From assembly GCA_947453415.1 (NCBI GenBank), contig CANGGG010000030.1:1-35202 (forward strand): DNA of 35,202 nt, in the 5' to 3' direction. The position numbers and the translations under genes are program-made. The stretch comes from Bacteroidota bacterium. GTDB taxonomy: Bacteria; Bacteroidota; Bacteroidia; UKL13-3. Positions 5,371 through 22,669 of this stretch are shown one piece after another (position 1 is the stretch's first letter; each line of letters starts with the position of its first letter). The notes beneath the pieces were generated by a model, which worked only from the letters and a program-made list of their open reading frames with translations, did no database searches and had not been told where the DNA came from.

Positions 5371-8307
5371 ATGAAAACAATTAGACAACTTAGTATGCTA
5401 TTTCTGTTACTTTTTGTAACACATATAGCCAAGGCACAATCATTTGACATGCCTTTAAATTTTGACAGCACTAATGTAACATACACATTAACAGACTTTG
5501 GAGGAAATACAAGTTCTGTGGTTGCAGATCCTGTAGTTTCTACCAACAAAGTTGCGAAAGTAATTAAATCAAATACAGCCGAAGTTTGGGCTGGAACCAC
5601 CATGGGTGGTGCAAGTGGTTTTGCTACTGCAATTGCTTTTAATTCGAGCAGAACTATAATTAGAATGCGTGTTTACTCACCTGACAGTGGAATTGCAGTA
5701 CGTTTGAAAGTTGAAGATCCTAATGACGGAACTAAAAGTGTAGAAACAGAAGCAAGAACTACTGCTTCAAACACTTGGCAAACTTTAACTTTTAATTTTA
5801 TCAATAATGCATCTGGTACAGCTTCAATTAATTACACTTATACTTATAAAAAGGCTTCCGTATTTTTTAACTTTGGTGTTAATGGTTCAACTGCTGGTAC
5901 TAAAACTTATTATTTTGATGATGTAGTTTTCCCAGCAGCTACTGGTCCGGTTTTATCACAAGTAACATTACCAATTTACTTCGATTCAACTAACGTAAAT
6001 TATACAACTACAGATTTTGGTGGAAATACAACTACTATAATTACAGACCCAGGCAACTCTTTAAATAAAGTAGCTCAAACAGTTAAATCAAATACAGCCG
6101 AATTATGGGCTGGTACAACTATGAGCACTTCATCGGGATTAGCAAATGCAATTCCTTTTTCATCAGGAAATGCTTACATTAGGGTAAAAGTTTATTCTCC
6201 AAATAGTGGAATACAAGTTCGTTTAAAAGCTGAAGATCCTAATGATCCAACAAAATCAGTAGAAACTGAAGCAACAACAACAACCGCAAATGCATGGGAA
6301 ACATTAACATTTAATTTTGCAAACCAAGCAACTGGTACAGCAGCAATTAACTATGGTTATACTTATAGAATGTTATCAATATTTTTTAATTTTGGTGTAA
6401 CAGGTGCTAATGCTGGAACAAAAACTTATTTGTGGGACAATGTAGAATTTGGAACGGGAACAGTTGCTCCACAATTAAACATGCCTGTAACTTTTGAAAG
6501 TACTACTTTAAATTATGGTTTAACTGATTTTGGAGGAAATACTAGTTCAATAGTAACAGATCCTTCAGTTTCATCAAACAAAGCATGTAAGGTTATAAAA
6601 TCAAGTACAGCTGAATTATGGGCTGGAACTACCATTGGAGCATCAACTGGATTTTCAACTGCAATACCGTTTACTTCTTCTGCAAAAACTATTAGTATGA
6701 GAGTTTACTCTCCAACAATTGGAACTCCAATCAGAATGAAAGTAGAAGACCCCAACGATGGTGGAAAAAGTGTAGAAACTGAAGCAACTACAACTGTTGC
6801 TAATGCATGGCAAACATTAGAATTTAATTTTGCTAACCAAGCAACTGGAACTGCTGCAATCAACTTAGCTTATACATATAAAAAACTTTCAGTATTCTTT
6901 AATTTTGGAACAACAGGCGCAATTGCTGGTGAAAAAACGTATTATTTTGATGATGTAACTTTTGGAACTATCACTCCTCCGGTTCCTTCTAAAGTAAATA
7001 TTAAATTTAGCGTAGATACCAAAAATATTACATTGAATGCAAATGATACCATCACTTTAAATGGTACATTTAATGGCTGGTGTGGAGCTTGTACTCCAAT
7101 GACTAAAACTCCAGGAACAAATATTTGGACTACAACTGTGGCACTTGATACCGCAACAGATTTTGAATTTAAATATGCTGTTGGTGCTTGGGTATCTTCA
7201 GAAAATTTAGCTTCAACTTTATCATGTACTAAAACTACGGGTAATTTTACCAATAGATTATTCAGAACGGCTAAAGTTAATGATTCAATTCCATTAGCTT
7301 GTTGGGAAAAATGTACTGCTTGTACTGGTACAGGTGGTTCATCAAAAACATACTTAACTTTTCAGGTTGATATGGCTAAAAACAAACCTGCAGCTGGCGA
7401 TACTGTTACTTTAAACGGAACATTTAACAATTGGTGTGGAGCTTGTAATCAAATGACCAATAAGCCAGGAACTGATATTTGGGTAACAAGTGTTTTATTA
7501 GATAAAGATTCAACTTATGATTTTAAATACACAGTTGGAAATTGGAAATCACAAGAATTATTAAAAGAAGGTATGACTTGTACAACTACTAAATCTGGTT
7601 TTACAAATAGAACAATTACTGTTTCAAAATTAAATGATACTTTACCTTTAGTATGCTGGGAAAGTTGTGTAAGTTGTTTAAATACAGCTCCAAAAGCTAA
7701 AGTTACTTTTAAAGTAAATATGAAAAATTATGTTGATGACAGTTTATCAATCAAAGGTGTTACATTAAATGGTAGTTTCAACGGATGGTGTGGCGAATGT
7801 ACCAAAATGACAGCTATTGGAAATAGCATTTATTCTGTTACATTAACTTTAGATACTGGCTCATATGATTACAAATTCAGCGTTGGAAATTGGTTAGATC
7901 AAGAACAATTTATAGCTACAGATCCTTGTACTAAAACAGTAGGTAATTTTACAAATCGTTACTTAAGTGTAAAAGATACTGCAGCAGTAATTGCAGGAAC
8001 ATACTGTTGGAATACTTGTACAAAATGTGAAGCAATTGGTTTTGCAGAACAAGCATTAAACAATGTTAAAATTTATCCAAATCCTACCACTGAAACATTA
8101 TTTATAGAAATGGGTCAATTCTTAGAAAGAGATTCAAAGGTTTTAGTATATAATATGTTAGGTGAGTTAATGATTACAAAAACATCGAATCAAAATAACG
8201 GAAATGGTACTGTTAATTTAGATACTCATTCGTTAAAACAAGGTATTTATTTGTTAAAAATAGAAGCGGACAATGCTGTAAAAACTATTAAGTTCCAAAT
8301 AAATTAG
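5371..8307 (+). CDS. Secreted multi-CBM protein with T9SS sorting domain
   Basis: The 978-residue protein has a signal peptide (1-22, ending KAQ). Three repeats of about 173 residues follow (DFGGN at about residues 41, 215 and 386), each with TAE-WAGTT, a RMRVYSP/RVKVYSP strand, EDPNDGTKSVETEA and an end strand TYYFDD. They look like beta-sandwich carbohydrate-binding modules. Next come three modules of about 119 residues starting VTLNGTFNGWCG, with KYAVG-W and CWEKC-C; they resemble starch-binding/E-set folds and carry paired cysteines. The C-terminus (KIYPNPTTETLFIEMG to the end) is a type A T9SS sorting domain. No catalytic motif is visible, so I infer a surface or released glucan-binding protein. 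It is convergent with the regulator gene and shares an upstream motif with the glucanase operon. Confidence 0.85.
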   Translation: MKTIRQLSMLFLLLFVTHIAKAQSFDMPLNFDSTNVTYTLTDFGGNTSSVVADPVVSTNKVAKVIKSNTAEVWAGTTMGGASGFATAIAFNSSRTIIRMRVYSPDSGIAVRLKVEDPNDGTKSVETEARTTASNTWQTLTFNFINNASGTASINYTYTYKKASVFFNFGVNGSTAGTKTYYFDDVVFPAATGPVLSQVTLPIYFDSTNVNYTTTDFGGNTTTIITDPGNSLNKVAQTVKSNTAELWAGTTMSTSSGLANAIPFSSGNAYIRVKVYSPNSGIQVRLKAEDPNDPTKSVETEATTTTANAWETLTFNFANQATGTAAINYGYTYRMLSIFFNFGVTGANAGTKTYLWDNVEFGTGTVAPQLNMPVTFESTTLNYGLTDFGGNTSSIVTDPSVSSNKACKVIKSSTAELWAGTTIGASTGFSTAIPFTSSAKTISMRVYSPTIGTPIRMKVEDPNDGGKSVETEATTTVANAWQTLEFNFANQATGTAAINLAYTYKKLSVFFNFGTTGAIAGEKTYYFDDVTFGTITPPVPSKVNIKFSVDTKNITLNANDTITLNGTFNGWCGACTPMTKTPGTNIWTTTVALDTATDFEFKYAVGAWVSSENLASTLSCTKTTGNFTNRLFRTAKVNDSIPLACWEKCTACTGTGGSSKTYLTFQVDMAKNKPAAGDTVTLNGTFNNWCGACNQMTNKPGTDIWVTSVLLDKDSTYDFKYTVGNWKSQELLKEGMTCTTTKSGFTNRTITVSKLNDTLPLVCWESCVSCLNTAPKAKVTFKVNMKNYVDDSLSIKGVTLNGSFNGWCGECTKMTAIGNSIYSVTLTLDTGSYDYKFSVGNWLDQEQFIATDPCTKTVGNFTNRYLSVKDTAAVIAGTYCWNTCTKCEAIGFAEQALNNVKIYPNPTTETLFIEMGQFLERDSKVLVYNMLGELMITKTSNQNNGNGTVNLDTHSLKQGIYLLKIEADNAVKTIKFQIN

Positions 8308-8375: not shown

Positions 8376-11261
8376 TTACAGTCTCAAAAGAAAATCTGTA
8401 AGATTGGTGGCATTTTCTAAGTCCATTTTTTTACGTAACCTGTATCTGCTAATTTCTACTCCACGGGCTGATATATTTAATATTGAAGCTATTTCCTTAG
8501 TTGATAAATTCATGCGTAAATAAGCACACATTTTTATATCGTTTGCACTTAAATTTGGAAATTTTTCTTTTAAACTTTTCGTAAAACTGGTATGAATATT
8601 ATTAAAATACAATTCAAATTTTTCCCAATCTTTATCAATTAAAGTATCTTTATCAATATTTTTTATAAGTTCACTTATTTCAGGTTTAATTTTAGAGTCA
8701 TTTGTAATATGTGAAATATGTTTCAGCTTTTCTTTTATTGACAATAATTTTTCGCTTTTTTGAACAATATGCATGGTTGAAGATGCCAATTCTTTTCCCT
8801 GGTGTTCCACTTCTAAAAGCAATTGTTGGTTTTTTAACTCAATTAATTCTTTTTCTTGTTTATCTTTTTCAGATCTTAAAATTTCAGTTTGTTGTTTAAA
8901 ATGACTGTCTTTTTCGGCAATAACCCTTGATGCTTTTTTACGAACTAACATTTGCGGATAAAAACCAATCAAAACCAAAATTAACATAGCAATTAACACA
9001 TAGCAAAATTTTGCAAATTTTGACCAGTACCAAGGTGCTTGAATGCAAAATTTTACAGTAGTTTCTTCACCTTCTAATCCCATGCATTTTGACTTTATGT
9101 GCAATGTGTAATTCCCATAAGACAATCGGCTAAACTCACGGGTAATGGCAGGTTTCCAAAGAGACCAATCTTTGTCCCAGCCTTCTAAATAGCTTGAAAA
9201 TACGAGGTCTTTATAAAAATAGGAATTGGGCGAACTGTAAGTAAATTCTATTGATTTGTCATCGATCTCAAGTTTTTCGTTACTAGAATTTACATACCTA
9301 AAATAAACAGAATCTGTTAATACTAATGAACTTATTCCAGTAATTAATACCGATGGTGCTTGTTGGACAAACTTTTTGATTTGATTCAAATTTATATTTA
9401 CAAAACCCGACTCAACTCCAATAAATAAATTCCCGTTTTCACATTCTTTTAAAAACTCAAAACCACCCACTAAATTTTGGTCTAATTTAGGTAAAATAAC
9501 CTTGTTAAAAGTATAGTCAACACCATTATAATTGGGTTTTAAAAATCCAATTTCATTGGAACTCACAAACCAAATATTTCCATTTTTTCCGTTAAAAATT
9601 CTCTTATAAACTTTTGAATTATCTAAATTTGAACTAAATGTTTTAAATAATTGAAACTTATCTGTTTCATCCTTATATTGATAAATGCCTTTGACAGTAC
9701 AAAAACTTAACCCTGGATCTGTATTAAACACATAATTTTCTGTTTCATTGGGTAAGCCATCTTTCACACCATAAAGTTTTACCAATTGAACATTCTGTAA
9801 ATCACCACTTAATTTAATTTTATAAATTCCTTTGTAAGGATGACCAACCCAAATATTTCCATTTTCGTCCTCTTCTAAAAACCTGCTCGATTCCTTAAAA
9901 CGACCAAGTTTTGTTACAAATGCCAATGAATTGTTTTCCCATTTAAAAAGACTCAAACCATTATAGGTTCCCATTAAATAATAACCAGCATGTTTTAATA
10001 GTGGAATTAATTTCCAGCAACCACGTGAATCTAGCATCTTTTTTGCTGCCAAACCATTTACTTCAAATAAACCTTCGTGGTGGCACATAAATAATTTTCC
10101 ATTTAGTACTTGAACCCACCAAACTTGCCCATCCGTATTGGTAACTAGCTGAAAAGCATCTGCTGAATTATTGCCTTTTTTTCGGGCATATAAACCATTA
10201 TTTGTACCAAAGTAATAGGTGTCTCCAAATTCAGTCATACTGTATCCAGTTCCTTTTAAAAGGCCATCTGGGAGCACGTAACCAAAAGGATAATTAAGTC
10301 TGACTAAGTCAATTCCATTGTCTAATCCAAGCCAAATATTATTATTTTTATCTTTGAATAACGACAAAACATTATTGTTTTGAAGGCCATCTTTTATACT
10401 TACATTATTAACTATTTTTCCATTTTGATCTAAAAAAAATATTCCTGACCTGTTGGTTGCTAAAATATAATAATTGCCATAAGAGCAAGCTTTATATATT
10501 CTACTTTGATTTAGGATATTGTTATCAATTTCAGACTTTTGTATGATATTATTTTTTATAAAATAAATGCCATTTTTATAAGTTGTTATTAATAAATCTT
10601 TTTTACCGAATGGCAAAATAGCAGAAATATCCAATTTGCTTTCTTTTAAAATTTGAATAAAATTATTTTCTTTTATTTCGTATATACTACCTAAAACATC
10701 AGTTAGCAAAATACGTTCACCCACTTTATATAAGTTCTCTAAAAAATTTTCAGATGGTTTTATTACATCAATGTTTTTACCGTCATATACAAAAATTTGT
10801 TTACTGGTTTGAAAATAAATTTTATTATTTAATTCTTCTATTCCCCAAACATCTTCAAATCCTTTAAACCCAATGGGCAAAAGGTTTGTAAGAGACACAA
10901 ATTTAAGGTTTCCATTTTTTTCAAAATAATAATAACCTAATTCATTTTGTCCTCCAGCGAACACTTTTTTGGTTTTATTATCATAAAAAATAGATCTTAA
11001 TATGGTGTTTTGTGGAAGAGAATATTTACTGAAAAGATTACCATTAAAAAGCAATAATCCATCATTATTAGCAAAAAAGATTAATCCATTATCAGCTTCG
11101 CAAACATCCCAAGTTTGAGTACCTCCATTATAGATAGATTTTGGATAGTTCTTTATCATTGGAGTAGAAGTCATGTTTTGCGCATTTATTTTTAATAAAA
11201 GCAAAAAGACATATGATATAACTAAACTAATTTTTAAAATATTTTTGTAATTTTTATCCAT
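8376..11261 (-). CDS. SusR-like transmembrane regulator (beta-propeller, Y_Y_Y, LuxR HTH)
   Basis: The 961-residue protein starts with a signal-like hydrophobic segment (residues 8-27). A long periplasmic region follows with repeated propeller motifs such as NNNIWLGLDNGI, YFGTNNGLY and GNIWVGHPYKGIYKI. A triple-tyrosine (Y_Y_Y) domain follows, with YLEGWDKDW and LSYGNYTLHIKSK. One transmembrane helix (FCYVLIAMLILVLIGFY) leads to a coiled coil, and the C-terminus is a LuxR/GerE-type helix-turn-helix (NLSTKEIASILNISARGVEISRYRLRKKM, split here: TKEIASILNIS then RGVEISRYRLRKKM). There is no histidine kinase or receiver domain, so it is a one-component sensor like SusR of Bacteroides. It is divergent from the glucanase operon and convergent with the CBM protein gene, both of which it probably controls in response to beta-glucan oligosaccharides. 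Confidence 0.9.
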   Translation of the reverse strand: MDKNYKNILKISLVISYVFLLLLKINAQNMTSTPMIKNYPKSIYNGGTQTWDVCEADNGLIFFANNDGLLLFNGNLFSKYSLPQNTILRSIFYDNKTKKVFAGGQNELGYYYFEKNGNLKFVSLTNLLPIGFKGFEDVWGIEELNNKIYFQTSKQIFVYDGKNIDVIKPSENFLENLYKVGERILLTDVLGSIYEIKENNFIQILKESKLDISAILPFGKKDLLITTYKNGIYFIKNNIIQKSEIDNNILNQSRIYKACSYGNYYILATNRSGIFFLDQNGKIVNNVSIKDGLQNNNVLSLFKDKNNNIWLGLDNGIDLVRLNYPFGYVLPDGLLKGTGYSMTEFGDTYYFGTNNGLYARKKGNNSADAFQLVTNTDGQVWWVQVLNGKLFMCHHEGLFEVNGLAAKKMLDSRGCWKLIPLLKHAGYYLMGTYNGLSLFKWENNSLAFVTKLGRFKESSRFLEEDENGNIWVGHPYKGIYKIKLSGDLQNVQLVKLYGVKDGLPNETENYVFNTDPGLSFCTVKGIYQYKDETDKFQLFKTFSSNLDNSKVYKRIFNGKNGNIWFVSSNEIGFLKPNYNGVDYTFNKVILPKLDQNLVGGFEFLKECENGNLFIGVESGFVNINLNQIKKFVQQAPSVLITGISSLVLTDSVYFRYVNSSNEKLEIDDKSIEFTYSSPNSYFYKDLVFSSYLEGWDKDWSLWKPAITREFSRLSYGNYTLHIKSKCMGLEGEETTVKFCIQAPWYWSKFAKFCYVLIAMLILVLIGFYPQMLVRKKASRVIAEKDSHFKQQTEILRSEKDKQEKELIELKNQQLLLEVEHQGKELASSTMHIVQKSEKLLSIKEKLKHISHITNDSKIKPEISELIKNIDKDTLIDKDWEKFELYFNNIHTSFTKSLKEKFPNLSANDIKMCAYLRMNLSTKEIASILNISARGVEISRYRLRKKMDLENATNLTDFLLRL

Positions 11262-11459: not shown

Positions 11460-13385
11460 TTGAAAAAATATTACTTATTCAACCGATTTTTTTGCTTGTT
11501 AATTCTTACGTTTTTTGTATTTAATTATTCCAAACTAAATGCTCAAGATGTTGATTCAGGCTTTGTTAAAAGACCAATTTCTACTGGTCCTTTGGGATTA
11601 ATTCCACTAAAAAAAATTAGTGTTAATGGATATTATCGTTTTTTTGGAATTAACCGTGACTTAGAAAACTCTTTTGTAGTAATTCCAGGGAATCAATTTG
11701 CAAATGCACCAAATTTTGTGCTTGGTGCTGGTGATGTATACCGAGATCCACCTTTAATGTTGATTAATATTTCTGCACATCCAACTTCTAAAACTTTTAT
11801 AGGAATGGATTATGCCTTATACCATAATTTTACTGGAAATATTGGTAATAGTCCAATCAATTTAAACTTAGGTATTAATTTAACTGGAAGTATTCAAACA
11901 GATATTGGGAAATTTACAGCTCACATGGGTGGTATTAATTGGACTGACATGAGCGGAATGCTTTTTAGTAGTTTTATTGGTTACCAACGTTATAGTATTT
12001 TTGAACGTTATCCTTGGGAAAATAATTCTGTGTCATACGATAGGGCCTCTAACTATTTTGAATATGGAAATATTAGCAGAGACATGCGCTTTGGAATGCA
12101 AGCTTTTAAAGGAATGATGATTGATGGAAATGAACTTCCGGGTAACATGTCGTTCCGATTATTATATGGTGTTACCCCAGTTCAATCTATAATTGGCAGT
12201 AAAATTCCATCCTATACTTTTGGATTAAGATTTAAGAAAAAAATAAACAATCAAACCATTGGGTTTAATATGATGAATTATACTTCATTCTTAGATTCAT
12301 TGGCAACTGAAGAAGCGGGAATTCAATTACAAACTTTTTCATATGATTTGGTATGGAATGGATTCGATTTGTCAGCAGAAATGGGAAGGGGCCAACTTTA
12401 TTCAAATACTCAAAAAGAAGGTTGGGGCGAAGCAATAAGAGTAAAAATTAAAACACCTGCTAAAATTACAAAAATTCCTTTTGATGTTGAAGGATTTTAT
12501 ATGAGTCCGCAATTTGTAAATTATTACGGAAATTTTTTAAGTTCAAATACAGCTTTTTTAAGTACATCATCTGTTAATCAAACTGGTAATTCGGCTGGTG
12601 GAAGCGGAGGTATTAGTAATTTTGCGGGATCAATAACAGACGTTGGTCAAATTAGTAATAACCGCAAGGGTTTTAGTTTTAATTTTTGGTTAGATATAAC
12701 AAAATCAACCAAATTAAACATTGGAAATATGGTTTCTAGTGAAATAAAATCAATGGGACGTACTTTGGCTTTTGGCCATAAAATAAATGCTTTGCCTTTT
12801 TCTCGTTTTGTACCTTTTGTGAATAATGTAGGTGCATACAGCAATTGGACATCATACTTTCGTGGTTTTTCTCAAACAATGGAAATTACAGATACAAATT
12901 CTTTAGGAATGCCCAAAACATTGACCAATTTTAACATGTTGCAAGTGCAATTAAAACAAAAAGTAAACTTTCCTTGGATGCCTTTTTATTTACTTTATGT
13001 TGGTTCATTTGGTTCAGCACAAAATGATTTTAACATCATTCCAACCTTTAGCAACAATGCTTATTTACGAACTTTTTACCATGAATTTGATGCTGTTTTT
13101 ATGTTCAACAAAGAAGTAAGTATAATTACATCGTTTGGTAAAGAATACATTACAGGTAATAGCCAATTAAACAAAGGTGATAATGTAGATGGAAAACTTG
13201 GAAGCACTTTAAATAATGCAATTAACCAAGAATCTAATTTGTTTGGATTGGGTTTGGATTTAGCCATTGCTAAAAATACAAATTTATATTTTAGAAGACG
13301 TTGGTTTAGCCAAGAAGACAAAAGTTTTGTAAAAGACAATATTAAAGGAACAGAAACAACCATTGAACTTAAACTATATTTTTAA
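11460..13385 (+). CDS. Outer-membrane beta-barrel protein, first gene of the glucanase operon
   Basis: The 641-residue protein has a signal peptide (about 1-28, ending LNAQ), many alternating aromatic strands and a C-terminal phenylalanine (ELKLYF), as in outer-membrane barrels. I see no TonB box, plug domain or SusC signature, and the length is short for a TonB-dependent receptor (usually 800 or more). I do not recognise the family. The start codon is TTG at 11460. It is the only start that gives an intact signal peptide (KKYYLFNRFF follows), and no in-frame ATG lies close upstream. The stop is one base before the next gene's ATG. As the first gene of the operon and partner of a second barrel, it may be a porin for oligoglucans; this is an inference. 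Confidence 0.8.
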   Translation: MKKYYLFNRFFCLLILTFFVFNYSKLNAQDVDSGFVKRPISTGPLGLIPLKKISVNGYYRFFGINRDLENSFVVIPGNQFANAPNFVLGAGDVYRDPPLMLINISAHPTSKTFIGMDYALYHNFTGNIGNSPINLNLGINLTGSIQTDIGKFTAHMGGINWTDMSGMLFSSFIGYQRYSIFERYPWENNSVSYDRASNYFEYGNISRDMRFGMQAFKGMMIDGNELPGNMSFRLLYGVTPVQSIIGSKIPSYTFGLRFKKKINNQTIGFNMMNYTSFLDSLATEEAGIQLQTFSYDLVWNGFDLSAEMGRGQLYSNTQKEGWGEAIRVKIKTPAKITKIPFDVEGFYMSPQFVNYYGNFLSSNTAFLSTSSVNQTGNSAGGSGGISNFAGSITDVGQISNNRKGFSFNFWLDITKSTKLNIGNMVSSEIKSMGRTLAFGHKINALPFSRFVPFVNNVGAYSNWTSYFRGFSQTMEITDTNSLGMPKTLTNFNMLQVQLKQKVNFPWMPFYLLYVGSFGSAQNDFNIIPTFSNNAYLRTFYHEFDAVFMFNKEVSIITSFGKEYITGNSQLNKGDNVDGKLGSTLNNAINQESNLFGLGLDLAIAKNTNLYFRRRWFSQEDKSFVKDNIKGTETTIELKLYF

Positions 13386-13386
13386 C

Positions 13387-15108
13387 ATGAAGCATATATA
13401 TACGTACTTATTATTATGTCTTGGTTTGTTGCCTTTGGCAATACAAGCGCAAGAAAAAAAGATTGATTTTTTTGGTTCGGGGAGGTTTACTTTTAACAAC
13501 AGTAGTTTGAGTGGTAACCTTATTAATAAAGATACTACCACAGCCAGAAAACAAATGACTGGTGCAACTTTATTTGATTTTGGATTACATATTCGTCCTT
13601 CAGAAAATACTGAAATAAAAGTTACCACTCGTGTGCAAAATGACATGACAGGTTTTTGGGGTGGTGGAATTATTTTCAATTTACGTGAATTATATTTACG
13701 AGGCTTAATGTTTAACAAAATAAAATACCAAGTTGGCGACTTAAATACTCGAATGACAGCTTATACTTTATTCAACAATCAAGGTGAACTCAGCCAGAAT
13801 AATCCTGCTGCTTTTAATACTTTCACGGAAGTAATTGCTTATGATAAATTTTATGGTCAAAATTCATGGCGTCAACAAGGAGCAACTGCAGATATTGGTT
13901 TTGATTTCAATAAATATGTGAACTATATTCATGTAACAGGATTAATTACTAAAAATAAACAAACAGACTATTTCAGTTCTCCCGATAGACTTTTTGCTGG
14001 TAGCACCATTCAAGCAAAAATGTTTAACCAATTAAGCATAGCTTATAATTATACCAATGCTTTTGACGTGCAAAAAACTGCCATGTTTTCTAATGCTTTA
14101 TTCAGCAATACTGTGAACAGTTTTGAAGTAAAAGAAGATTTAAAAGTAAAAGATTTAAAAGTAGTATTGGGTGGAGAATTTGGTAAATCGAATGTGACAT
14201 TTGAAAACACTACAAACGCACCTTCAATAAACGATGGAATGTTTATGGATGGAGGAATTACCATTGATAACAAAAAGAAAAATTGGAATATTGGTATTGA
14301 TTTACGCAGCGTAGAAACTAATTTTAGAAGTATAGGCGCTCAAAGCAGAAGAGTGGATTTTAATGCAGTGGCAAGCGAATATCCCTATTATACCAATCGT
14401 GAGTCGGCAAGACCAGCAAATATGCTTTCAATATTAACAGATGGAAATTATTACAATATGTTTTTAAGTCCAACTTTAAAAGATTACAACCCTGCATATG
14501 AAAACATGTTGCCTTATGGAAAAGCAACTCCAAACCGCCAAGGCGGTGATGTTAAATTAGCATGGAATCATAACAATAAAAATCTTTTGAAAATAAGCGG
14601 AAATGCATCCATGTACAATGAAATTACAGGGCAAGGAACTACTGCAATTAGAGACTTTACAAATTTTGAAATATTGACCGATTTAGGCGTAAATGAATTA
14701 TATAAAGGTAAAAAGAAAATGCATGTTGGATTGTTGGTAAAACAACAAAATACTTCAAGAAAAGGAACTGAGGGAATTGACAAAATTGATTTTATAAGTA
14801 CGCAAATAAAAGTAGGTGTGGAGTATGAAATTATTCCAAATTTAGAAATTCAATTAGCAGGAATTTTATTAAATGCGAAGGGAAATGAGTTTTTAGCGCA
14901 ACGCAATTCATTCAATGAAATTATTTTTTATAAATCATATAACGCAGATTTACAAGAAACCATTTTGTTGGGAGGAATTAACTATCAATTCAGTAAATAT
15001 AACTGCTTAAAAATTCAGTATCAACAAGCTGATTGGAATAATAAATTATTGACAGAAAACCAATATGCTATTAATAGGTTAGCCATTATTTATAATTTAT
15101 TTTTTTAA
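13387..15108 (+). CDS. Second outer-membrane beta-barrel protein
   Basis: The protein has 573 residues from ATG 13387. A longer frame from 13363 overlaps the previous gene and puts eight extra residues before a clean signal peptide (MKHIYTYLLLCLGLLPLAIQAQ), so I reject it. The mature part starts KKIDFFGSGRFTF, consists of amphipathic strands with many Asn/Tyr/Phe, and ends AIIYNLFF with a C-terminal Phe. There is no plug or TonB box. Its layout (barrel strands interrupted by long polar loops) resembles uncharacterised Bacteroidota porin-like proteins, but I cannot name a family. It follows the first barrel gene by one base and precedes a lipoprotein gene by nine, so the three are almost surely translated together. 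Confidence 0.8.
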   Translation: MKHIYTYLLLCLGLLPLAIQAQEKKIDFFGSGRFTFNNSSLSGNLINKDTTTARKQMTGATLFDFGLHIRPSENTEIKVTTRVQNDMTGFWGGGIIFNLRELYLRGLMFNKIKYQVGDLNTRMTAYTLFNNQGELSQNNPAAFNTFTEVIAYDKFYGQNSWRQQGATADIGFDFNKYVNYIHVTGLITKNKQTDYFSSPDRLFAGSTIQAKMFNQLSIAYNYTNAFDVQKTAMFSNALFSNTVNSFEVKEDLKVKDLKVVLGGEFGKSNVTFENTTNAPSINDGMFMDGGITIDNKKKNWNIGIDLRSVETNFRSIGAQSRRVDFNAVASEYPYYTNRESARPANMLSILTDGNYYNMFLSPTLKDYNPAYENMLPYGKATPNRQGGDVKLAWNHNNKNLLKISGNASMYNEITGQGTTAIRDFTNFEILTDLGVNELYKGKKKMHVGLLVKQQNTSRKGTEGIDKIDFISTQIKVGVEYEIIPNLEIQLAGILLNAKGNEFLAQRNSFNEIIFYKSYNADLQETILLGGINYQFSKYNCLKIQYQQADWNNKLLTENQYAINRLAIIYNLFF

Positions 15109-15117
15109 AAAACTAAC

Positions 15118-16152
15118 ATGAAAAAAACATTGCTATATATAGGAATTATTGCCATTGCAATTATTTCATCGTGTAAAAAAGAAACCGCCATTGAAGGTCC
15201 AGAATTGGTAGATATTTATGGTGATTTTAAAGTTTTAGAGCCTTTGAAAGCTTCCATAAAAGCACCAAATTTTGCTACAGGCGACATTGTAATTTACAAT
15301 ACCAAACTTTCAATTAGAACCAATTGGACTGTTGAAATAATTGGTTTAAATAGTGGCGCGTTAAAAATATTTACAGGTAATGATAAAGATTTTTCATTGA
15401 ATCAATTAGCATGGAATGGAAGTATTTCTTTTGCACCATTTTTCAGGAAAAATGAACCAGTAGTTGCACGCATGAGTTTTGAAAATTATCCAGATACTTT
15501 ATACTCCGATACTATTATAATTGCAGCTGCAAGACCAACTCCTTCCGTTGATATTTTAATAGACGATTTTGAAAGTCCACAACGTGCTTATAATACATTT
15601 ACCGAGGGTCAACAATCATATAATTCTACTTCAGTAAATTATTCTGGAATATCCTCAGCCGAAAAAACAAGGTTCTTTGTAATGGCCGGTAACCATGGGC
15701 CTACAGCTAGTTTATTTATTTGCGGAATGGCATTAAGTGCCAAAATTAGTCAAGGAACTGCTAACAATTATTTTGTTTTTAGTACTGATAATCCGAAGAA
15801 AGTTTTCTTTAACGCATATGTATATGGTTGGGGCGATAAAAATGCACAATTAAGTGTAGAATTTCAGGAAGACGATAATTTAGATGGAATTTACCAACCA
15901 GCTGAAGAAGGAACTTATAACTACAAAATGAATGTTAATTGGAAAGGTTGGAAATTGGTTAGTTTTTCATACGATGAAACCAGTATTTCTACTTCTGGCG
16001 GATTTGGGAACACCGATAGAAATGGTAAAAAAGAATTAGATAGAATTATAAATGCACAGTTTTTATTATTGGCACAAGCTGGAACTTCTGGTGCTACACG
16101 CGTTGGACTTGACTTTGCTTCATTCACTTATTCAGCGCCATTTCAACCATAA
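15118..16152 (+). CDS. Lipoprotein with glycan-binding-like C-terminus
   Basis: The 344-residue protein has a lipoprotein signal (IAIAIISSC, Cys19) followed by KKE, without the acidic run typical of surface export. Residues 30-145 look like one Ig/PKD-like beta-sandwich. Residues 148-344 start DILIDDFESPQRAYNTF and end with LDFASFTYSAP, the pattern of a jelly-roll carbohydrate-binding module that begins at 'DDFE' and ends at 'DFxSF'. It may do the job of a SusE-like surface glycan-binding protein. It shares the A of TAATG with the next gene (stop 16150-16152, start 16152), a sign of coupled translation. Confidence 0.75.
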   Translation: MKKTLLYIGIIAIAIISSCKKETAIEGPELVDIYGDFKVLEPLKASIKAPNFATGDIVIYNTKLSIRTNWTVEIIGLNSGALKIFTGNDKDFSLNQLAWNGSISFAPFFRKNEPVVARMSFENYPDTLYSDTIIIAAARPTPSVDILIDDFESPQRAYNTFTEGQQSYNSTSVNYSGISSAEKTRFFVMAGNHGPTASLFICGMALSAKISQGTANNYFVFSTDNPKKVFFNAYVYGWGDKNAQLSVEFQEDDNLDGIYQPAEEGTYNYKMNVNWKGWKLVSFSYDETSISTSGGFGNTDRNGKKELDRIINAQFLLLAQAGTSGATRVGLDFASFTYSAPFQP

Positions 16153-17339
16153 TGAGAAAGTTTACCATATACCTGTTTTTATTAATTTTTACCTTGAGTA
16201 ATTGTGGCATTCGCATGCAAAAAACACAATTAACAGATGAATGGGGAGGAACTTATACAAATACAGCCGTTAAGGAATTTCAAGATAAAGAAATTTATAA
16301 GGATTTAACTGTGGATGTTTGGGGAATGGAAAAAACAGATTGTAAGAATTTTACTCGACTTGATTCACTTTCATACAGTGGTAAATCGTGTTTAAGTGTT
16401 AGTTGGAACAGAACGGGTAATTGCCCGTGGATAGGTTTTGGAATTGGTTGGAACGGCTATGCTTCAAAAGATTTAACCGATGTAATGGAAAGCGGAAGTA
16501 TTGAATTTTACATGAGAGCTTTAAAAGGAAAACAATTTATTCCAACCTTAATTTTTTTATTAGAAGATTATTCAGGAGTTCAAAGTGCAACTGTGCTTAA
16601 AGCAAGTCAATTATCAAATTATCCAATAGATGAAGAATGGCAAAAAGTAAGTATTCCCTTAAATACATTTTTGAAATCAGCCAAGCCACTATGCGATTTT
16701 AGTAACATCAAAAGTTTGAATATAGAATGTCAAGGTTCAGGTGCTTTTTTAATTGATAAAATTGAAATAGGAGGAGCTAATTCCAAAAATATAAATACTA
16801 AAAAATTTGGTGTAGCAATTACGCAAAATTTTCCTGCAACAATATTTCATGATGAACTTCCTTTTGCTTGGGGATTGGGTAATTATAATGGTAAAAATAT
16901 ATTATTAGATAGTAATAAAAATTATGCTGGAAGTAAATCTATTTATCTAAAATGGAATGAACAAGAAAGTGGAAACCAAACTCGAAAAATTGGAGTGAAT
17001 TGGGAACATTGGCAAGCCATTTCATTTCCTGATTCTTTGAGAAATTATGCGCTAAAATTTTATATTAATTCTATTGATATAAATGCCAGTAAAAATTTAA
17101 ATATAGGCTTTGAAAGTTATAATGGCAAAACAGTGATGATACCAATAAAAAAAGAATATTTAGACAGTTTACCAACTATTAATAATTGGCAAATGATTAC
17201 TATTCCATTTACAGAATTTGATTTTACAAAAGATAGATTTGACACAACAAAATTCAAACAATTAATCATTGAATTTAACAATTCAGGAGAACTTTGGTTG
17301 GATGAAATTACAATAGAACAAAACAAAAATTATGAATAA
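16152..17339 (+). CDS. Lipoprotein with two jelly-roll, CBM-like domains
   Basis: The 395-residue protein has a lipobox LSNC (Cys18). Two similar halves follow. Residues about 45-205 contain YSGKSCLSVSWNRTGNCPW, SGSIEFYMRAL and WQKVSIPLNTF, ending FLIDKIEIGG. Residues about 225-393 contain YAGSKSIYLKWNEQESGN, NYALKFYINS and WQMITIPFTEF, ending LWLDEITIEQ. This 'store, present, bind' pattern is that of galactose-binding-like CBMs (CBM11/CIA30-like). No catalytic residues are evident. I infer a second anchored glucan-binding protein. The gene overlaps the previous one by one base and the GH3 gene by eight. Confidence 0.78.
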   Translation: MRKFTIYLFLLIFTLSNCGIRMQKTQLTDEWGGTYTNTAVKEFQDKEIYKDLTVDVWGMEKTDCKNFTRLDSLSYSGKSCLSVSWNRTGNCPWIGFGIGWNGYASKDLTDVMESGSIEFYMRALKGKQFIPTLIFLLEDYSGVQSATVLKASQLSNYPIDEEWQKVSIPLNTFLKSAKPLCDFSNIKSLNIECQGSGAFLIDKIEIGGANSKNINTKKFGVAITQNFPATIFHDELPFAWGLGNYNGKNILLDSNKNYAGSKSIYLKWNEQESGNQTRKIGVNWEHWQAISFPDSLRNYALKFYINSIDINASKNLNIGFESYNGKTVMIPIKKEYLDSLPTINNWQMITIPFTEFDFTKDRFDTTKFKQLIIEFNNSGELWLDEITIEQNKNYE

Positions 17340-19572
17340 AACAATTTTACTTTTTATACTTTTTTCTATCATGCTTTGGCAATGTGGAACTAAAACCAAC
17401 GAGTCGGCAAAATCGAAAGCACAAGCATTATTAAGCCAAATGACTTTAGAAGAAAAAGCTGGGCAAATGACACAATTAACTATTGAAATGATTTCAAAAG
17501 GGGAAGGTTTTAATTTGGAAAAACCACATGCTTTAGATACCGCTAAATTGCAAAATGTAATTGTGAATTTAGGTGTTGGTTCTATTTTAAATGTTGGCGG
17601 ACATACTTACGATGTAAATCATTGGAAAGAAATTATAACCAGTATAGAAAAATACAGCCAACAATCGCGTTTAAAAATTCCAGTTTTATATGGTATTGAT
17701 GCCATTCATGGCGCAAATTATACAGTTGGTGCCACTTTGTATCCACAACAAATTGGATTGGCAGCAACATTTAATCCTGAAATGGCTTATAAAATGGCTC
17801 AATTTGTTGCCAACGATGTTAGAGGTAGTGGCATTCCATGGAACTTTTCACCTGTGTTAGATGTGGGAAGAAACCCCATGTGGCCAAGGTTTTGGGAAAC
17901 ATTTGGTGAAGACCCTTTTTTGGTTTCTCAAATGGGAGTGGCCATTGTTAAAGGTTATCAAAACACCAATAATGGAACTGTAAAACCATTTGCAGCTTGC
18001 TTAAAACATTATGTGGCTTATAGTAATCCGCAAAGTGGACATGATAGAACTCCTGCTTATATTCCAGAGCGTCAATTACGTGAAATTTATTTGTTGCCTT
18101 TTGCTAAAGCAATTGCCGCAGGCGCAAAAACCATAATGATAAATTCAGGTGAATGGAACGGTGAACCTGTTCATGCCAGTAAATTTTTATTGCAAACGGT
18201 GCTTCGCAATGAATTGAAATTTGAGGGAATAACAGTTACTGATTGGGAGGATATAAAAAACCTAACTGAACGCCATAAAGTTGCTGAAACATATAAAGAT
18301 GCAGTTGCGCTTGCTATTAACGCGGGTATTGATTTAGCAATGGTTCCGCTTGATTTAGACTTTACAAAATACTTGATTGAAAATGTAAATGAAGGTAAAA
18401 TAAAAAAGGAAAGAATAGATGAAGCGGTGCTTAGAATTTTAACTTTAAAATACGAGCTTGGATTGTTTGATGAACCTAATACTAAGCCTGAAAATTTTAA
18501 AGAGCCAGAACAAATTGAAAGCAAAAAACTAAGTTATGAATTGGCATGCCAAAGCATTACTTTATTAAAAAATGAAGGTAATATTTTGCCATTTTCAATG
18601 AATGAAAAAATATTAGTAACTGGTCCTAATGCTGATTATATCAATGCCTTGAATGGTGGTTGGAGCCATACTTGGCAGGGAAGAGACACCAATTACAATC
18701 CTAAAGTTTTAACAGTTATAAATGCGCTGAAAAGTGTTTTTGGAAATGGAAATGTAAGTTATTTAAAAGGGAATACTTACACACAAAATTTACCTGAAAA
18801 TGTGTTGTTAAATGCTGCGCAAAATGTAAGTAATGTGGTGCTTTGTTTGGGTGAAGATACTTATACTGAAAAACCTGGTGACATCAACGATTTAGAGTTA
18901 GATGAATCACAACAAAATTTGATAAAAATGTATAAAAAAGCGGGTAAAAAAGTAATAGTAATTTTATTAGAAGGAAGACCTAGAACTTTTGCTAAAACTG
19001 AACCCCTCTGCGATGCAATTTTAGATGCTTATTTACCCGGAAATGAAGGTGCATTAGCCATTGCAGATATCATGATTGGTAAGGTAAATCCAAGTGGAAA
19101 ATTACCTTTTACTTTTCCCCGTTTTGCTGGTGTTCACACCACTTATGATTGTAAATATACAGAAACTTTGAACAACGATTTTAAACCAATGGGGTTTGAT
19201 CCATTATTTTATTTTGGACAGGGTTTAAGTTATTCAAATTTTAATTATGCTAATATGAAAATTGAGAACAGAGATGTTACAGTAAAAGATACCGTTTCTA
19301 TTACTGTTCAATTGAATAATACTAGTGCAATTGCAGGTTCAGAAACAGTTTTAGTTTATGCCTCCGATGTTTATGCCAGCATTACTCCATCAGTAAAAAG
19401 ATTACGTGCATTTAAACGTGTACCATTGGATAAATATGAAGGAAAAGAAGTGCAGATTAAAATAGCTATTTCTGATTTAGCTTATGTGGGATTAGACAAT
19501 AAATTTATAGTAGAGCCTGGTAAGTTTTATATTAATATTGCTAATTTAAAAGACTCTATTACCGTTAAATAA
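17332..19572 (+). CDS. GH3 beta-glucosidase lipoprotein
   Basis: The 746-residue enzyme has a lipobox (LWQC, Cys18), so it is anchored in a membrane facing the periplasm or outside. The GH3 N-terminal barrel shows LYGIDAIHGANY, GRNPMWPRFWETFGEDP and the KHYVAYSNPQSG block. The nucleophile lies in TVTDWEDI (Asp304). The C-terminal sandwich has GEDTYTEKPGDINDLELDE and LPGNEGALAIADI, and an Fn3-like domain follows (residues about 640-746). Family GH3 enzymes with this layout release glucose from the non-reducing ends of beta-glucans. Linkage cannot be read from sequence, but the GH16 neighbour suggests beta-1,3-glucan oligosaccharides. It overlaps the preceding lipoprotein gene by eight bases and precedes GH16 by seven. 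Confidence 0.95.
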   Translation: MNKTILLFILFSIMLWQCGTKTNESAKSKAQALLSQMTLEEKAGQMTQLTIEMISKGEGFNLEKPHALDTAKLQNVIVNLGVGSILNVGGHTYDVNHWKEIITSIEKYSQQSRLKIPVLYGIDAIHGANYTVGATLYPQQIGLAATFNPEMAYKMAQFVANDVRGSGIPWNFSPVLDVGRNPMWPRFWETFGEDPFLVSQMGVAIVKGYQNTNNGTVKPFAACLKHYVAYSNPQSGHDRTPAYIPERQLREIYLLPFAKAIAAGAKTIMINSGEWNGEPVHASKFLLQTVLRNELKFEGITVTDWEDIKNLTERHKVAETYKDAVALAINAGIDLAMVPLDLDFTKYLIENVNEGKIKKERIDEAVLRILTLKYELGLFDEPNTKPENFKEPEQIESKKLSYELACQSITLLKNEGNILPFSMNEKILVTGPNADYINALNGGWSHTWQGRDTNYNPKVLTVINALKSVFGNGNVSYLKGNTYTQNLPENVLLNAAQNVSNVVLCLGEDTYTEKPGDINDLELDESQQNLIKMYKKAGKKVIVILLEGRPRTFAKTEPLCDAILDAYLPGNEGALAIADIMIGKVNPSGKLPFTFPRFAGVHTTYDCKYTETLNNDFKPMGFDPLFYFGQGLSYSNFNYANMKIENRDVTVKDTVSITVQLNNTSAIAGSETVLVYASDVYASITPSVKRLRAFKRVPLDKYEGKEVQIKIAISDLAYVGLDNKFIVEPGKFYINIANLKDSITVK

Positions 19573-19579
19573 ACCATGT

Positions 19580-21397
19580 ATGCAAAATTATAAAACCATC
19601 TTTTTAATATTAATACTCTCTATTTCCACTCCAGTTTTTTCGCAAGATTTTTTGCGTTGGTCCGATGAATTTAATGGAAGTAATTTAGACACTAATTATT
19701 GGGAATATCAAATAGGTGATGGTTGTCCAAACTTATGTGGATGGGGAAATGACGAACGTCAATCATATCAAAAAGGGAATATTGTTTTAGCAAATGGCAT
19801 GCTAAATATCAATGCTAAAAAAGAAACAATAGGAAATAGTTCATACAGTTCTGGCAGAATTAGAACCATGAATAAATTTGATTTTTCATCGGGTAGAATT
19901 GATGTAAGAGCAAGATTACCAATTGGACAAGCCTATTGGCCCGCTGTATGGTTTTTACCATCTGAAAATTATTATGGAACTTGGCCATTAAGTGGCGAAA
20001 TAGACCTAATGGAAGGCAAAGGACAAGAGCCTAAAAATACATACGGAACTTTACATTATGGGGCTCATGCTCCTAATAATAAATATATAGGTGCTAGTTA
20101 CACCTTACCATCTGGTAATTTCACTTCTGAGTTTCATGTTTTCTCGTTGAATTGGAAAAAAGATACTATTCAATGGTTGGTTGACAATGTAGTTTATAGC
20201 ACTAAAACAAAAAAAGATTTACCTGATTTTTGGTGGCCATATAACAGAAATTTTCATTGTATTATTAATTTGGCAGTTGGTGGATATTTTCTTGGATATC
20301 CAGATGGAACAACTCCTGATACTGCTTCTTTACAAGTTGATTATATTCGTGTTTATCAAAATTTAAACGATGTATATATTACCAGTCCTGATGCTATTTT
20401 GAGAGCTGATCAACAAAAAGATTTTTATACTCAAAAAATTGCGGGAGCCACTTATTTATGGCAAGTTCCTGCCAATTGTAAAATTACGCAAGGACAGGGA
20501 ACCGCAGCCATTAAAGCCAATTGGGGTTTAAAAAGTGATAGCATAAAAGTGACAATTACTAACCAGTCAACTACTAAAACAATTTCCAAATTTATTAGGA
20601 CTTTGCCCGATACATGTGAGGGTGTTTTTGATAATGTTGAATCGCTCAGAACTGCATTTTGGGTAGGTGGAAATGGAACTTATAAAGCTGCAGTTAATAA
20701 TCCTTCAAAAGACAGTGTGAACACTACTTTAATTTGTAACAGGTATTATAGAAGTGGATCCACTACTTACGATGCATTGGTGGTTTTTTCTGATGTAATT
20801 CGCAACGCAAAAGCATTTGAAGATGGCACGCTATTAATGAAAATGAAACTTTATACCACCGCTCCTATTGGAACTGATGTAAATATAAATTTTGAAAATA
20901 GAAGTTTATCCGGATTAGATTATCCTTCTGGAAGGCGTTGTGTTTTGCAAGCTAAAACTTCTAAAACCAGAGCTTGGGAAGAGTTAACGTTTAAATTAAT
21001 TTTGAAGCCTGACGCCAATACGCCTGAAGGAAACATTGACCAAATGGTGATTTTATTTGCTCCTAATTCTAATAACTCTGACGTGTTTTATTTTGATGAA
21101 TTTAGTTTAGTGGAAACACCTTGTAAAACTGCTACCAGTAGCATCAATGAAAGTGAGATTTTAAATAATAAAATTAATATTTATCCAAATCCATTTACTA
21201 ATCAAATAAGCATAGAAGCAGCTTTTGTTCCTTCACAAATTGTTGTGTTTGATTTAACTGGAAAGGAATTGATTGCTGCTAAAAATATTGACGAAGTTAA
21301 CAAGCAAATTCCTTCGTTAAACACAGGAAGTTATATTGTTAGGATTACAAATAATGAGCGTCATTTTTATTTTAAAATTGTAAAAACCAATCCATAA
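19580..21397 (+). CDS. GH16 beta-glucanase (laminarinase-like) with T9SS sorting domain
   Basis: The 605-residue protein has a signal peptide (1-22, ending VFSQ). The GH16 domain (about 24-265) starts LRWSDEFNGSNLDTNYWEY, contains GWGNDERQSY, and has the catalytic SGEIDLMEG, with nucleophile Glu140 and acid/base Glu145. The bulged EIDxxE form is typical of endo-beta-1,3-glucanases. An Ig/PKD-like stretch (270-345) is followed by a CBM-like module (350-515, ending DVFYFDEFSL) of the kind repeated in the 978-residue protein. A type A T9SS domain (KINIYPNPFTNQISIEAAF to the end) closes the chain. The enzyme is therefore secreted by T9SS and probably fixed to the surface. It cuts the polymer for the GH-A and GH3 neighbours. 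Confidence 0.95.
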   Translation: MQNYKTIFLILILSISTPVFSQDFLRWSDEFNGSNLDTNYWEYQIGDGCPNLCGWGNDERQSYQKGNIVLANGMLNINAKKETIGNSSYSSGRIRTMNKFDFSSGRIDVRARLPIGQAYWPAVWFLPSENYYGTWPLSGEIDLMEGKGQEPKNTYGTLHYGAHAPNNKYIGASYTLPSGNFTSEFHVFSLNWKKDTIQWLVDNVVYSTKTKKDLPDFWWPYNRNFHCIINLAVGGYFLGYPDGTTPDTASLQVDYIRVYQNLNDVYITSPDAILRADQQKDFYTQKIAGATYLWQVPANCKITQGQGTAAIKANWGLKSDSIKVTITNQSTTKTISKFIRTLPDTCEGVFDNVESLRTAFWVGGNGTYKAAVNNPSKDSVNTTLICNRYYRSGSTTYDALVVFSDVIRNAKAFEDGTLLMKMKLYTTAPIGTDVNINFENRSLSGLDYPSGRRCVLQAKTSKTRAWEELTFKLILKPDANTPEGNIDQMVILFAPNSNNSDVFYFDEFSLVETPCKTATSSINESEILNNKINIYPNPFTNQISIEAAFVPSQIVVFDLTGKELIAAKNIDEVNKQIPSLNTGSYIVRITNNERHFYFKIVKTNP

Positions 21398-21400
21398 TTT

Positions 21401-22669
21401 ATGAAAAATAAAATTCTTGGTTTACTGCTTTTTTGTTTTGGTTTTCAACCCATTTTTGCGCAAGTAATAAAAGTTGAAATCACTAAAAATTCAAATGGGA
21501 ATTTCCAATTGCTACGCAACAATTTACCTTATTTTGTAAAAGGTGCGGGTGGCGATGTGTTTATGGATAAAACAGAAACTGCTGGAGGAAATTCAGTGAG
21601 AATTTGGGGTGCAGAAAAAGCGCAAGAAGTTTTAGACGAAGCTCAAAAACATGGATTAACAGTAATGCTTGGACTTTGGATGCCACCAGAAAGAACAGGT
21701 TTTGATTACAGTGATAAATGGGCTTGCCAAGATCAAGTGGAGCAATTTAAAGCGGTTGTAAATCGGTTTAAAAACCATCCTGCTTTATTGCTTTGGGGAA
21801 TAGGAAATGAAGTGGATTTGGACTATACCGATTTTTCGGTTTGGAAAAATGTACAAGCCATTGCCGCAATGATTCATGAAGAAGATAAGAATCACCCTAC
21901 TTCTACTGTTACCGCGGGAATTGATGCACCCGAAGTTCATTTAATCAATGAAATTTGTCCCGACATTGATATTTTAGGTGTGAATACTTATGGCGATTTG
22001 CCAGCATTGGCAGAGAAAATAAAACTTTTTGGTTGGAAAAAACCATACTTGGTTACTGAATGGGGTCCAAACGGTCATTGGGAAGTGGCCAAAGTAAAAT
22101 GGGGCGCTGCCATTGAACAAACTTCTACCGAAAAAGCCATTACTTACCGAAAAAGATATAATGAAAATATTATCAGTGATAGCAATCAATGTGTGGGTTC
22201 TTATGCATTTTTATGGGGACAAAAACAAGAAACCACGCCTACTTGGTATGGAGTTTTTGTAGATAAAAAACAAACGGAAGCAGTAAATGTATTGCAAGAA
22301 GTTTGGAGCGGAAAAGCACCTCAGTTTTGGGCGCCACAAATTGATTCTTTTTTACTCAATAATGAATTGCCAACTAAAAGTTTGGAATTTAAAAAAGGTG
22401 CAAATGTGAATTTGAAACTAAAAATAACTCATCCTGATTTGGCAAGCTTAACTTATAAATGGGAATTATTGCCAGAAAGTGAATTTACCGGAACCGGTGG
22501 AGATGCTGAAAAAAGGCCAGATGCTATACCCATTAACGTAAAAGGAAATGGAGTAAATGGGTATAATTTTAAAGCACCATTTCAAAAAGGAGCATACCGC
22601 ATATTTGTATATATTTACGATACCCACGACCAAGTAGCTTGTGCTAACTTTCCGTTTTGGGTTAAGTAG
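21401..22669 (+). CDS. Clan GH-A glycoside hydrolase, family uncertain
   Basis: The 422-residue protein has a signal peptide (1-20, ending IFAQ). A TIM-barrel glycosidase domain covers about 35-310, and a C-terminal sandwich (320-422) contains LKITHPDLASLTYKWEL. The two clan GH-A acids are clear: acid/base Glu137 in WGIGNEVDL and nucleophile Glu220 in VTEWGPNGHW, with NTYG before the latter. It looks like the barrel of GH2-type or GH5-like enzymes without the GH2 N-terminal domains. Beta-1,3-glucan families such as GH17 or GH158 are also possible, but I cannot assign one. No T9SS tag is seen, so it is probably periplasmic. It is the last gene of the operon, three bases after GH16. Confidence 0.85.
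   Translation: MKNKILGLLLFCFGFQPIFAQVIKVEITKNSNGNFQLLRNNLPYFVKGAGGDVFMDKTETAGGNSVRIWGAEKAQEVLDEAQKHGLTVMLGLWMPPERTGFDYSDKWACQDQVEQFKAVVNRFKNHPALLLWGIGNEVDLDYTDFSVWKNVQAIAAMIHEEDKNHPTSTVTAGIDAPEVHLINEICPDIDILGVNTYGDLPALAEKIKLFGWKKPYLVTEWGPNGHWEVAKVKWGAAIEQTSTEKAITYRKRYNENIISDSNQCVGSYAFLWGQKQETTPTWYGVFVDKKQTEAVNVLQEVWSGKAPQFWAPQIDSFLLNNELPTKSLEFKKGANVNLKLKITHPDLASLTYKWELLPESEFTGTGGDAEKRPDAIPINVKGNGVNGYNFKAPFQKGAYRIFVYIYDTHDQVACANFPFWVK

Follow-up and report, generated by a model that had tools for sequence, protein, structure and literature searches.

A probable beta-1,3-glucan utilisation operon built on a two-barrel, two-lipoprotein outer-membrane module without SusC/SusD

The seven-gene operon described here is quite probably a beta-1,3-glucan PUL resting on an outer-membrane (OM) module without SusC/SusD, of the kind encoded by chu_1276-chu_1280 in Cytophaga hutchinsonii, and working in the manner proposed below. 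It is best read as a beta-1,3-glucan counterpart to a PUL type lacking SusCD that has so far been known from cellulose. The four genes at its head, encoding two OM barrels (B1 and B2) and two lipoproteins (LP1 and LP2), constitute a core that recurs in the same order across Bacteroidota, and we propose that it is a general module in which a swap of enzyme brings a swap of substrate.

The operon and its predicted target

The window, i.e., the whole 35,202-nucleotide stretch analysed (positions 1-35,202), spans the entirety of one contig (C30) of a 2.9-Mb genome in 107 contigs, the closest public relatives of which are uncultured Bacteroidota MAGs; the "Chitinophaga pinensis" label on several of these relatives' records looks like a misnomer. 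Positions 11460-22669 are occupied by seven plus-strand ORFs, separated by +1, +9, -1, -8, +7, and +3 bases. Because all seven share a strand and are spaced by only -8 to +9 bases, a single operon is the natural reading, in keeping with the tight packing described in the first-pass annotation. Scans for sigma-70 promoters and terminators returned no more than was obtained from shuffled sequence.

The first two genes, B1 (11460-13385) and B2 (13387-15108), encode signal-peptide-bearing OM beta-barrels, modelled without a plug by AlphaFold2 and placed by gene order in the CHU_1276 and CHU_1277 positions, respectively; the B2 ORF reaches upstream to a TTG at 13363, with the start codon probably being the ATG at 13387. 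LP1 (15118-16152; CHU_1278 position) is a lipoprotein (lipobox ISSC, with Cys19 invariant across the LP1 alignment) that is likely surface glycan-binding; Pfam gave one sub-threshold match only, NCBIfam none, and PDB no credible relative. LP2 (16152-17339; CHU_1279 position; lipobox LSNC) is an SGBP-B-like lipoprotein with two CBM-like domains, matched in Pfam by CBM30 (3.6e-15) and SGBP_B_XBD (2e-7), and its family profile matches CBM30 (2c24) and CBM11 (1v0a/6r3m) structures in the PDB. The earlier description of two lipoproteins with CBM-like folds therefore stands for both lipoboxes and for the fold of LP2, with the fold of LP1 following only via the published model of CHU_1278.

Three glycosidases complete the run. 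The first is a GH3 lipoprotein (17332-19572; lipobox LWQC), a predicted beta-glucosidase with Pfam N- and C-domain matches of 2.7e-74 and 1.3e-41 and BoGH3B as its top PDB match (2e-176). It is followed by a GH16 enzyme (19580-21397), annotated through Pfam and NCBIfam as an endo-beta-1,3-glucanase (laminarinase) with a PKD-like domain and a T9SS type A sorting domain (Pfam Por_Secre_tail); its leading PDB matches are laminarinases (1e-56) and it carries the motif EIDLME. The last (21401-22669) has a signal peptide and no T9SS tag and belongs in Pfam to the GH-A TIM barrels, as first annotated; matches to PDB 9oro (6e-96) and 6pal (7e-68) narrow its identity to a GH158 endo-beta-1,3-glucanase. 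Since GH16 laminarinase, GH158, and GH3 are present together, the predicted target is sharpened from beta-glucan in general to beta-1,3-glucan of the laminarin type.

Divergent from the operon, on the minus strand (8376-11261), lies a SusR-like sensor-regulator with a Reg_prop/Y_Y_Y sensor (Reg_prop 1.9e-10; Y_Y_Y 7.8e-4, under its cut-off), a LuxR-type HTH (GerE 1.6e-7), and no kinase. Beyond it, on the plus strand (5371-8307), is a 978-amino-acid T9SS-secreted protein with CBM48/CBM53-type domains (Pfam CBM_48 8.7e-17; Por_Secre_tail 5e-15) that recurs beside the regulator within the window's own family of loci. Both neighbours had been so described at first pass. The CBM48/CBM53/CBM20-type domains of the secreted protein are usually linked to alpha-glucan, yet it adjoins a beta-glucan operon. 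Neither a SusC-like TBDT with a plug (PF07715) nor a SusD-like protein was detected by Pfam in the window, such that the barrels and lipoproteins do stand where that pair would be expected.

A conserved core with exchangeable enzymes

Cellulose use by C. hutchinsonii does not depend on the SusC/SusD homologues of that species (PMC12016534). There, chu_1276-chu_1280, termed an "atypical PUL" for cellulose and present in two close relatives besides (PMC12016534), encode in order two OM proteins, a bimodular beta-sandwich SGBP, an SGBP-B, and a GH9 enzyme (PMC12016534; for GH9, PMC6247017), with the barrels CHU_1276 and CHU_1277 both required for cellulose use (PMC12016534). Our operon has the same succession on one strand of barrel, barrel, SGBP-like protein, SGBP-B-like protein, and glycosidase, likewise with no SusC/SusD, and LP2 and CHU_1279 each have two CBM-like domains resembling CBM11 (6R3M for the C domain of CHU_1279; PMC12016534). 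The two loci differ in that (i) the enzymes are GH3, GH16, and GH158 as opposed to GH9 for cellulose, (ii) a SusR-like regulator is adjacent, whereas chu_1276 is under an ECF sigma factor, and (iii) the C domain of the window's LP2 matches SGBP_B_XBD, unlike the GH9-type pattern. As GH9 is missing from it, the operon is at most a variant of chu_1276-chu_1280 with another target.

The intermediate link is provided by four loci (L066 and L207 by Pfam, with L213 and L216 in the same cluster) with the order B1-B2-LP1-LP2-GH9, i.e., the five genes of chu_1276-chu_1280 in identical order. In L207, LP2 (380 residues; 380-381 in the GH9 loci) displays Y89xxF92, F180, Y255xxF258, and F349, an aromatic pattern that parallels, when compared by published residue positions, W89, F92, F180, Y253, F256, and F343 of the 375-residue CHU_1279 (PMC12016534). 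The core is thus very probably of the same kind as chu_1276-chu_1280, a putative homology argued from gene order, fold, and residue pattern. Although B1 and B2 belong to no family in Pfam or NCBIfam and have no credible relative in PDB sequence and profile searches, the earlier statement that neither barrel falls into a nameable family no longer holds in this respect.

Likenesses to other systems are more partial. The Bacteroides uniformis 1,3GUL (BACUNI_01484-01490) targets beta-1,3-glucan (PMC7157763) and has in common with the operon GH16, GH158, GH3, and an SGBP-B-type protein; however, it contains a SusC-like TBDT, a SusD-like SGBP-A, and a hybrid two-component regulator (PMC7157763), with B1, B2, and LP1 present instead in the operon. 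Canonical Sus-type PULs similarly cluster surface binding proteins, glycosidases, and a dedicated regulator, but the operon is without either a plugged TBDT or SusD. CAZyme clusters in PULDB without susC/D share this lack (PMC6499787); those are defined by absence alone, whereas the operon has a specific conserved four-gene core.

Among 147 related genomes, relatives of B1 and of B2 occur in an identical set of 32. A wider B2 scan (one genome per species, with a query from a 10-row subset of the B2 alignment) yielded 204 stretches encoding a relative, from which 79 loci were kept. Gene-order counts, resting on 127 distinct B2 loci, place B1 directly upstream of B2 on the same strand in 126/126 loci, LP1 directly downstream in 120/121, and a second lipoprotein next in 107/115, with the order kept down to approximately 30% protein identity. 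Conservation of B1-B2-LP1-LP2 is far beyond chance, and the order highlighted at first pass as worth following in other genomes is indeed maintained. B2 occurs in 45 of the 396 genomes of an even Bacteroidia sample; a single match (L151) is labelled Rhodothermia. Carriers include a cultured species, Cryomorpha ignava (L145). Across the 69 loci with enough flank, for which neighbours were labelled by BLAST to a reference, the core is accompanied by GH158 (55 loci), GH16 (46), and GH3 (42), with a SusR-like regulator nearby in 28, a NUDIX/winged-helix regulator nearby in 21, and a sodium:solute symporter (SSF) adjoining in 19.

Other enzymes accompany the core in a small group of genomes (f11), which have up to five core copies each, in versions with GH9 (L066 and L207), with GH18 and GlcN6P deaminase, with GH97, or with GH16/GH3. 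Three f11 loci (L065, L206, and L223) have a GH18 chitinase upstream, glucosamine-6-phosphate deaminase (NagB)/PIG-L proteins downstream, and an LP1-like second lipoprotein, and are predicted to be a chitin version of the core. In L272 (5516-19498) and L274, the core is followed by GH97, with L272 adding a 1441-amino-acid Ig-containing protein, from which an alpha-glucan version is predicted. A quick-search, midpoint-rooted B2 tree unites the GH9, GH97, and chitin types in a single group (SH-aLRT 99) nested among the beta-1,3-glucan loci. This spread and substrate-swapping of the core appear to be new, no account of them having been found in the literature searched.

Barrel models, proposed mechanism and alternatives

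AlphaFold2 models built on alignments of 64-65 relatives gave a B2 barrel of 22 strands (mean pLDDT 91.5) and a B1 barrel of about 22 strands, counted by eye on the DSSP line (mean pLDDT 83.2). The best-conserved segments are largely long non-strand loops, at approximately 171-220 and 436-450 in B1 and 316-331 and 377-395 in B2, which may narrow the lumen or bind partner proteins. Foldseek against the PDB returned for both a loose, generic barrel likeness only (porins, ushers, AlgE) with TM scores of about 0.2-0.5; as these came with rmsd values of 10-24 Å, designations of "usher," "AlgE," or "chitoporin" were rejected. A putative porin induced by laminarin in Formosa (PMC6246565) was also set aside as a precedent, judged by its description, as it is linked to nitrogen genes. 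Such generic likeness counts against a firm assignment of pore function; on balance, B1 and B2 are probably TonB-independent channels assembled with the lipoproteins.

In the proposed mechanism, the SusR-like regulator would sense glucan products, and the GH16 enzyme, judging by its sorting domain, would reach the cell surface through type IX export and cut glucan outside the cell. LP2, via its CBM-like domains, and LP1 would hold glucan chains at the surface, where B1 and B2 would form an OM complex with the lipoproteins. This complex would pass oligosaccharides or glucose without TonB, with the remaining digestion left to GH158 and GH3, acting in the periplasm or at the outer membrane. An inner-membrane symporter would then import glucose; the sodium:solute symporter that is adjacent in sister loci is absent beside the operon.

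Of the two roles offered for the barrels at first pass, TonB-independent uptake appears to have more in its favour than enzyme display or secretion. Mutants in chu_1276 and chu_1279 grow poorly on low glucose (PMC12016534) and CHU_1277 is tied to assimilation of cello-oligosaccharides in C. hutchinsonii, findings that favour uptake. Conversely, loss of chu_1277 lowers cell-associated beta-glucosidase activity, for which chu_1276 is also reported to matter, and this favours a role in assembly or display. B1 and B2 might thus serve as an assembly or display platform for the lipoproteins and enzymes, with uptake left to general porins or another transporter; this would also suit the requirement for CHU_1279 through its physical presence and not its cellulose binding (PMC12016534), as well as the occurrence of usher and AlgE-type barrels among the fold matches. 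We nonetheless consider such a platform unlikely, given the low-glucose defect, the surface display that the T9SS and lipoprotein export already provide, and the co-variation of B1-B2-LP1-LP2 with substrate in the manner of SusCD.

A transporter of the Sus type is not foreign to the source genome, in which, as the first-pass annotation had thought to look for, SusCD pairs lie outside the window, on contigs C31 and C84. The C84 pair (L278) sits beside a T9SS-tagged alpha-amylase in an ordinary starch-type PUL. In the C31 PUL (L063; 20000-35000), two GH30 enzymes and GH97 are joined by a CBM48-T9SS protein and a regulator resembling that of the window. Were C31 the true glucan importer, the operon would supply enzymes and binding proteins only, an arrangement to which the beta-glucan-type GH30 enzymes, the CBM48-T9SS protein, and the similar regulator lend some weight. 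This is rendered quite improbable by core-carrying genomes, at least 12 in number and including all seven sampled f11 genomes, in which SusD is undetectable by either scoring family (PF07980 and PF14322), and by relatives in the window's own family, most of which have one weak SusD match only. The C31 PUL is a possible partner of the operon, the two perhaps being used together on branched laminarin. The core is no universal SusCD replacement, an idea rejected since 32/45 carriers in the Bacteroidia sample (versus 155/351 non-carriers) have at least one SusD match. It is scarcer in SusD-rich genomes (at least four matches), where it occurs in 2/101 versus 43/295 others (Fisher p 2e-4, kinship uncorrected).

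That B1 and B2 are divergent TBDTs, their plug coming from internal loops or from a separate protein, is similarly very doubtful: about 22 strands is what TBDTs have, the best-conserved B2 segments are long loops, and prediction for CHU_1276 gave TBDT matches (PMC12016534), but no Pfam plug was matched in either barrel, no globular, plug-sized domain precedes the first strand in the AlphaFold2 models, and no conserved TonB box is seen in the alignments because the N-terminal tail is unconserved. The plug-less character claimed from the outset is therefore upheld.

With TonB-independent uptake as the preferred reading, a wider proposition can be formulated, to which we would give even chances: the two-barrel, two-lipoprotein core would be a second general architecture for glycan import, TonB-independent and present in approximately one-tenth of sampled Bacteroidia, enzyme-swapped for beta-1,3-glucan, cellulose, chitin, and alpha-glucan, and the sole PUL-type uptake in SusD-less lineages. 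PUL searches in Bacteroidota take SusC/SusD as their marker of glycan uptake and therefore overlook loci based on this core. Should the core prove to be a transporter, (i) uptake of laminarin and cellulose by SusD-poor freshwater and marine Bacteroidota would become predictable from sequence, (ii) the puzzling use of cellulose by C. hutchinsonii without SusCD would be explained as an instance of a general system, and (iii) the substrate-swapped paralogues would provide a ready comparison for determinants of specificity.

Two further proteins recur around the core. One, at 16263-17102 of L148 with about 24 relatives, is a 280-amino-acid protein of no Pfam family with a lipobox-like LAFGC, encoded in many loci right after GH3 or LP2. 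The other, at 3139-3870 of L137 with 33 relatives, is a NUDIX and NrtR/AraR-type winged-helix regulator, often found where the SusR-like regulator is absent.
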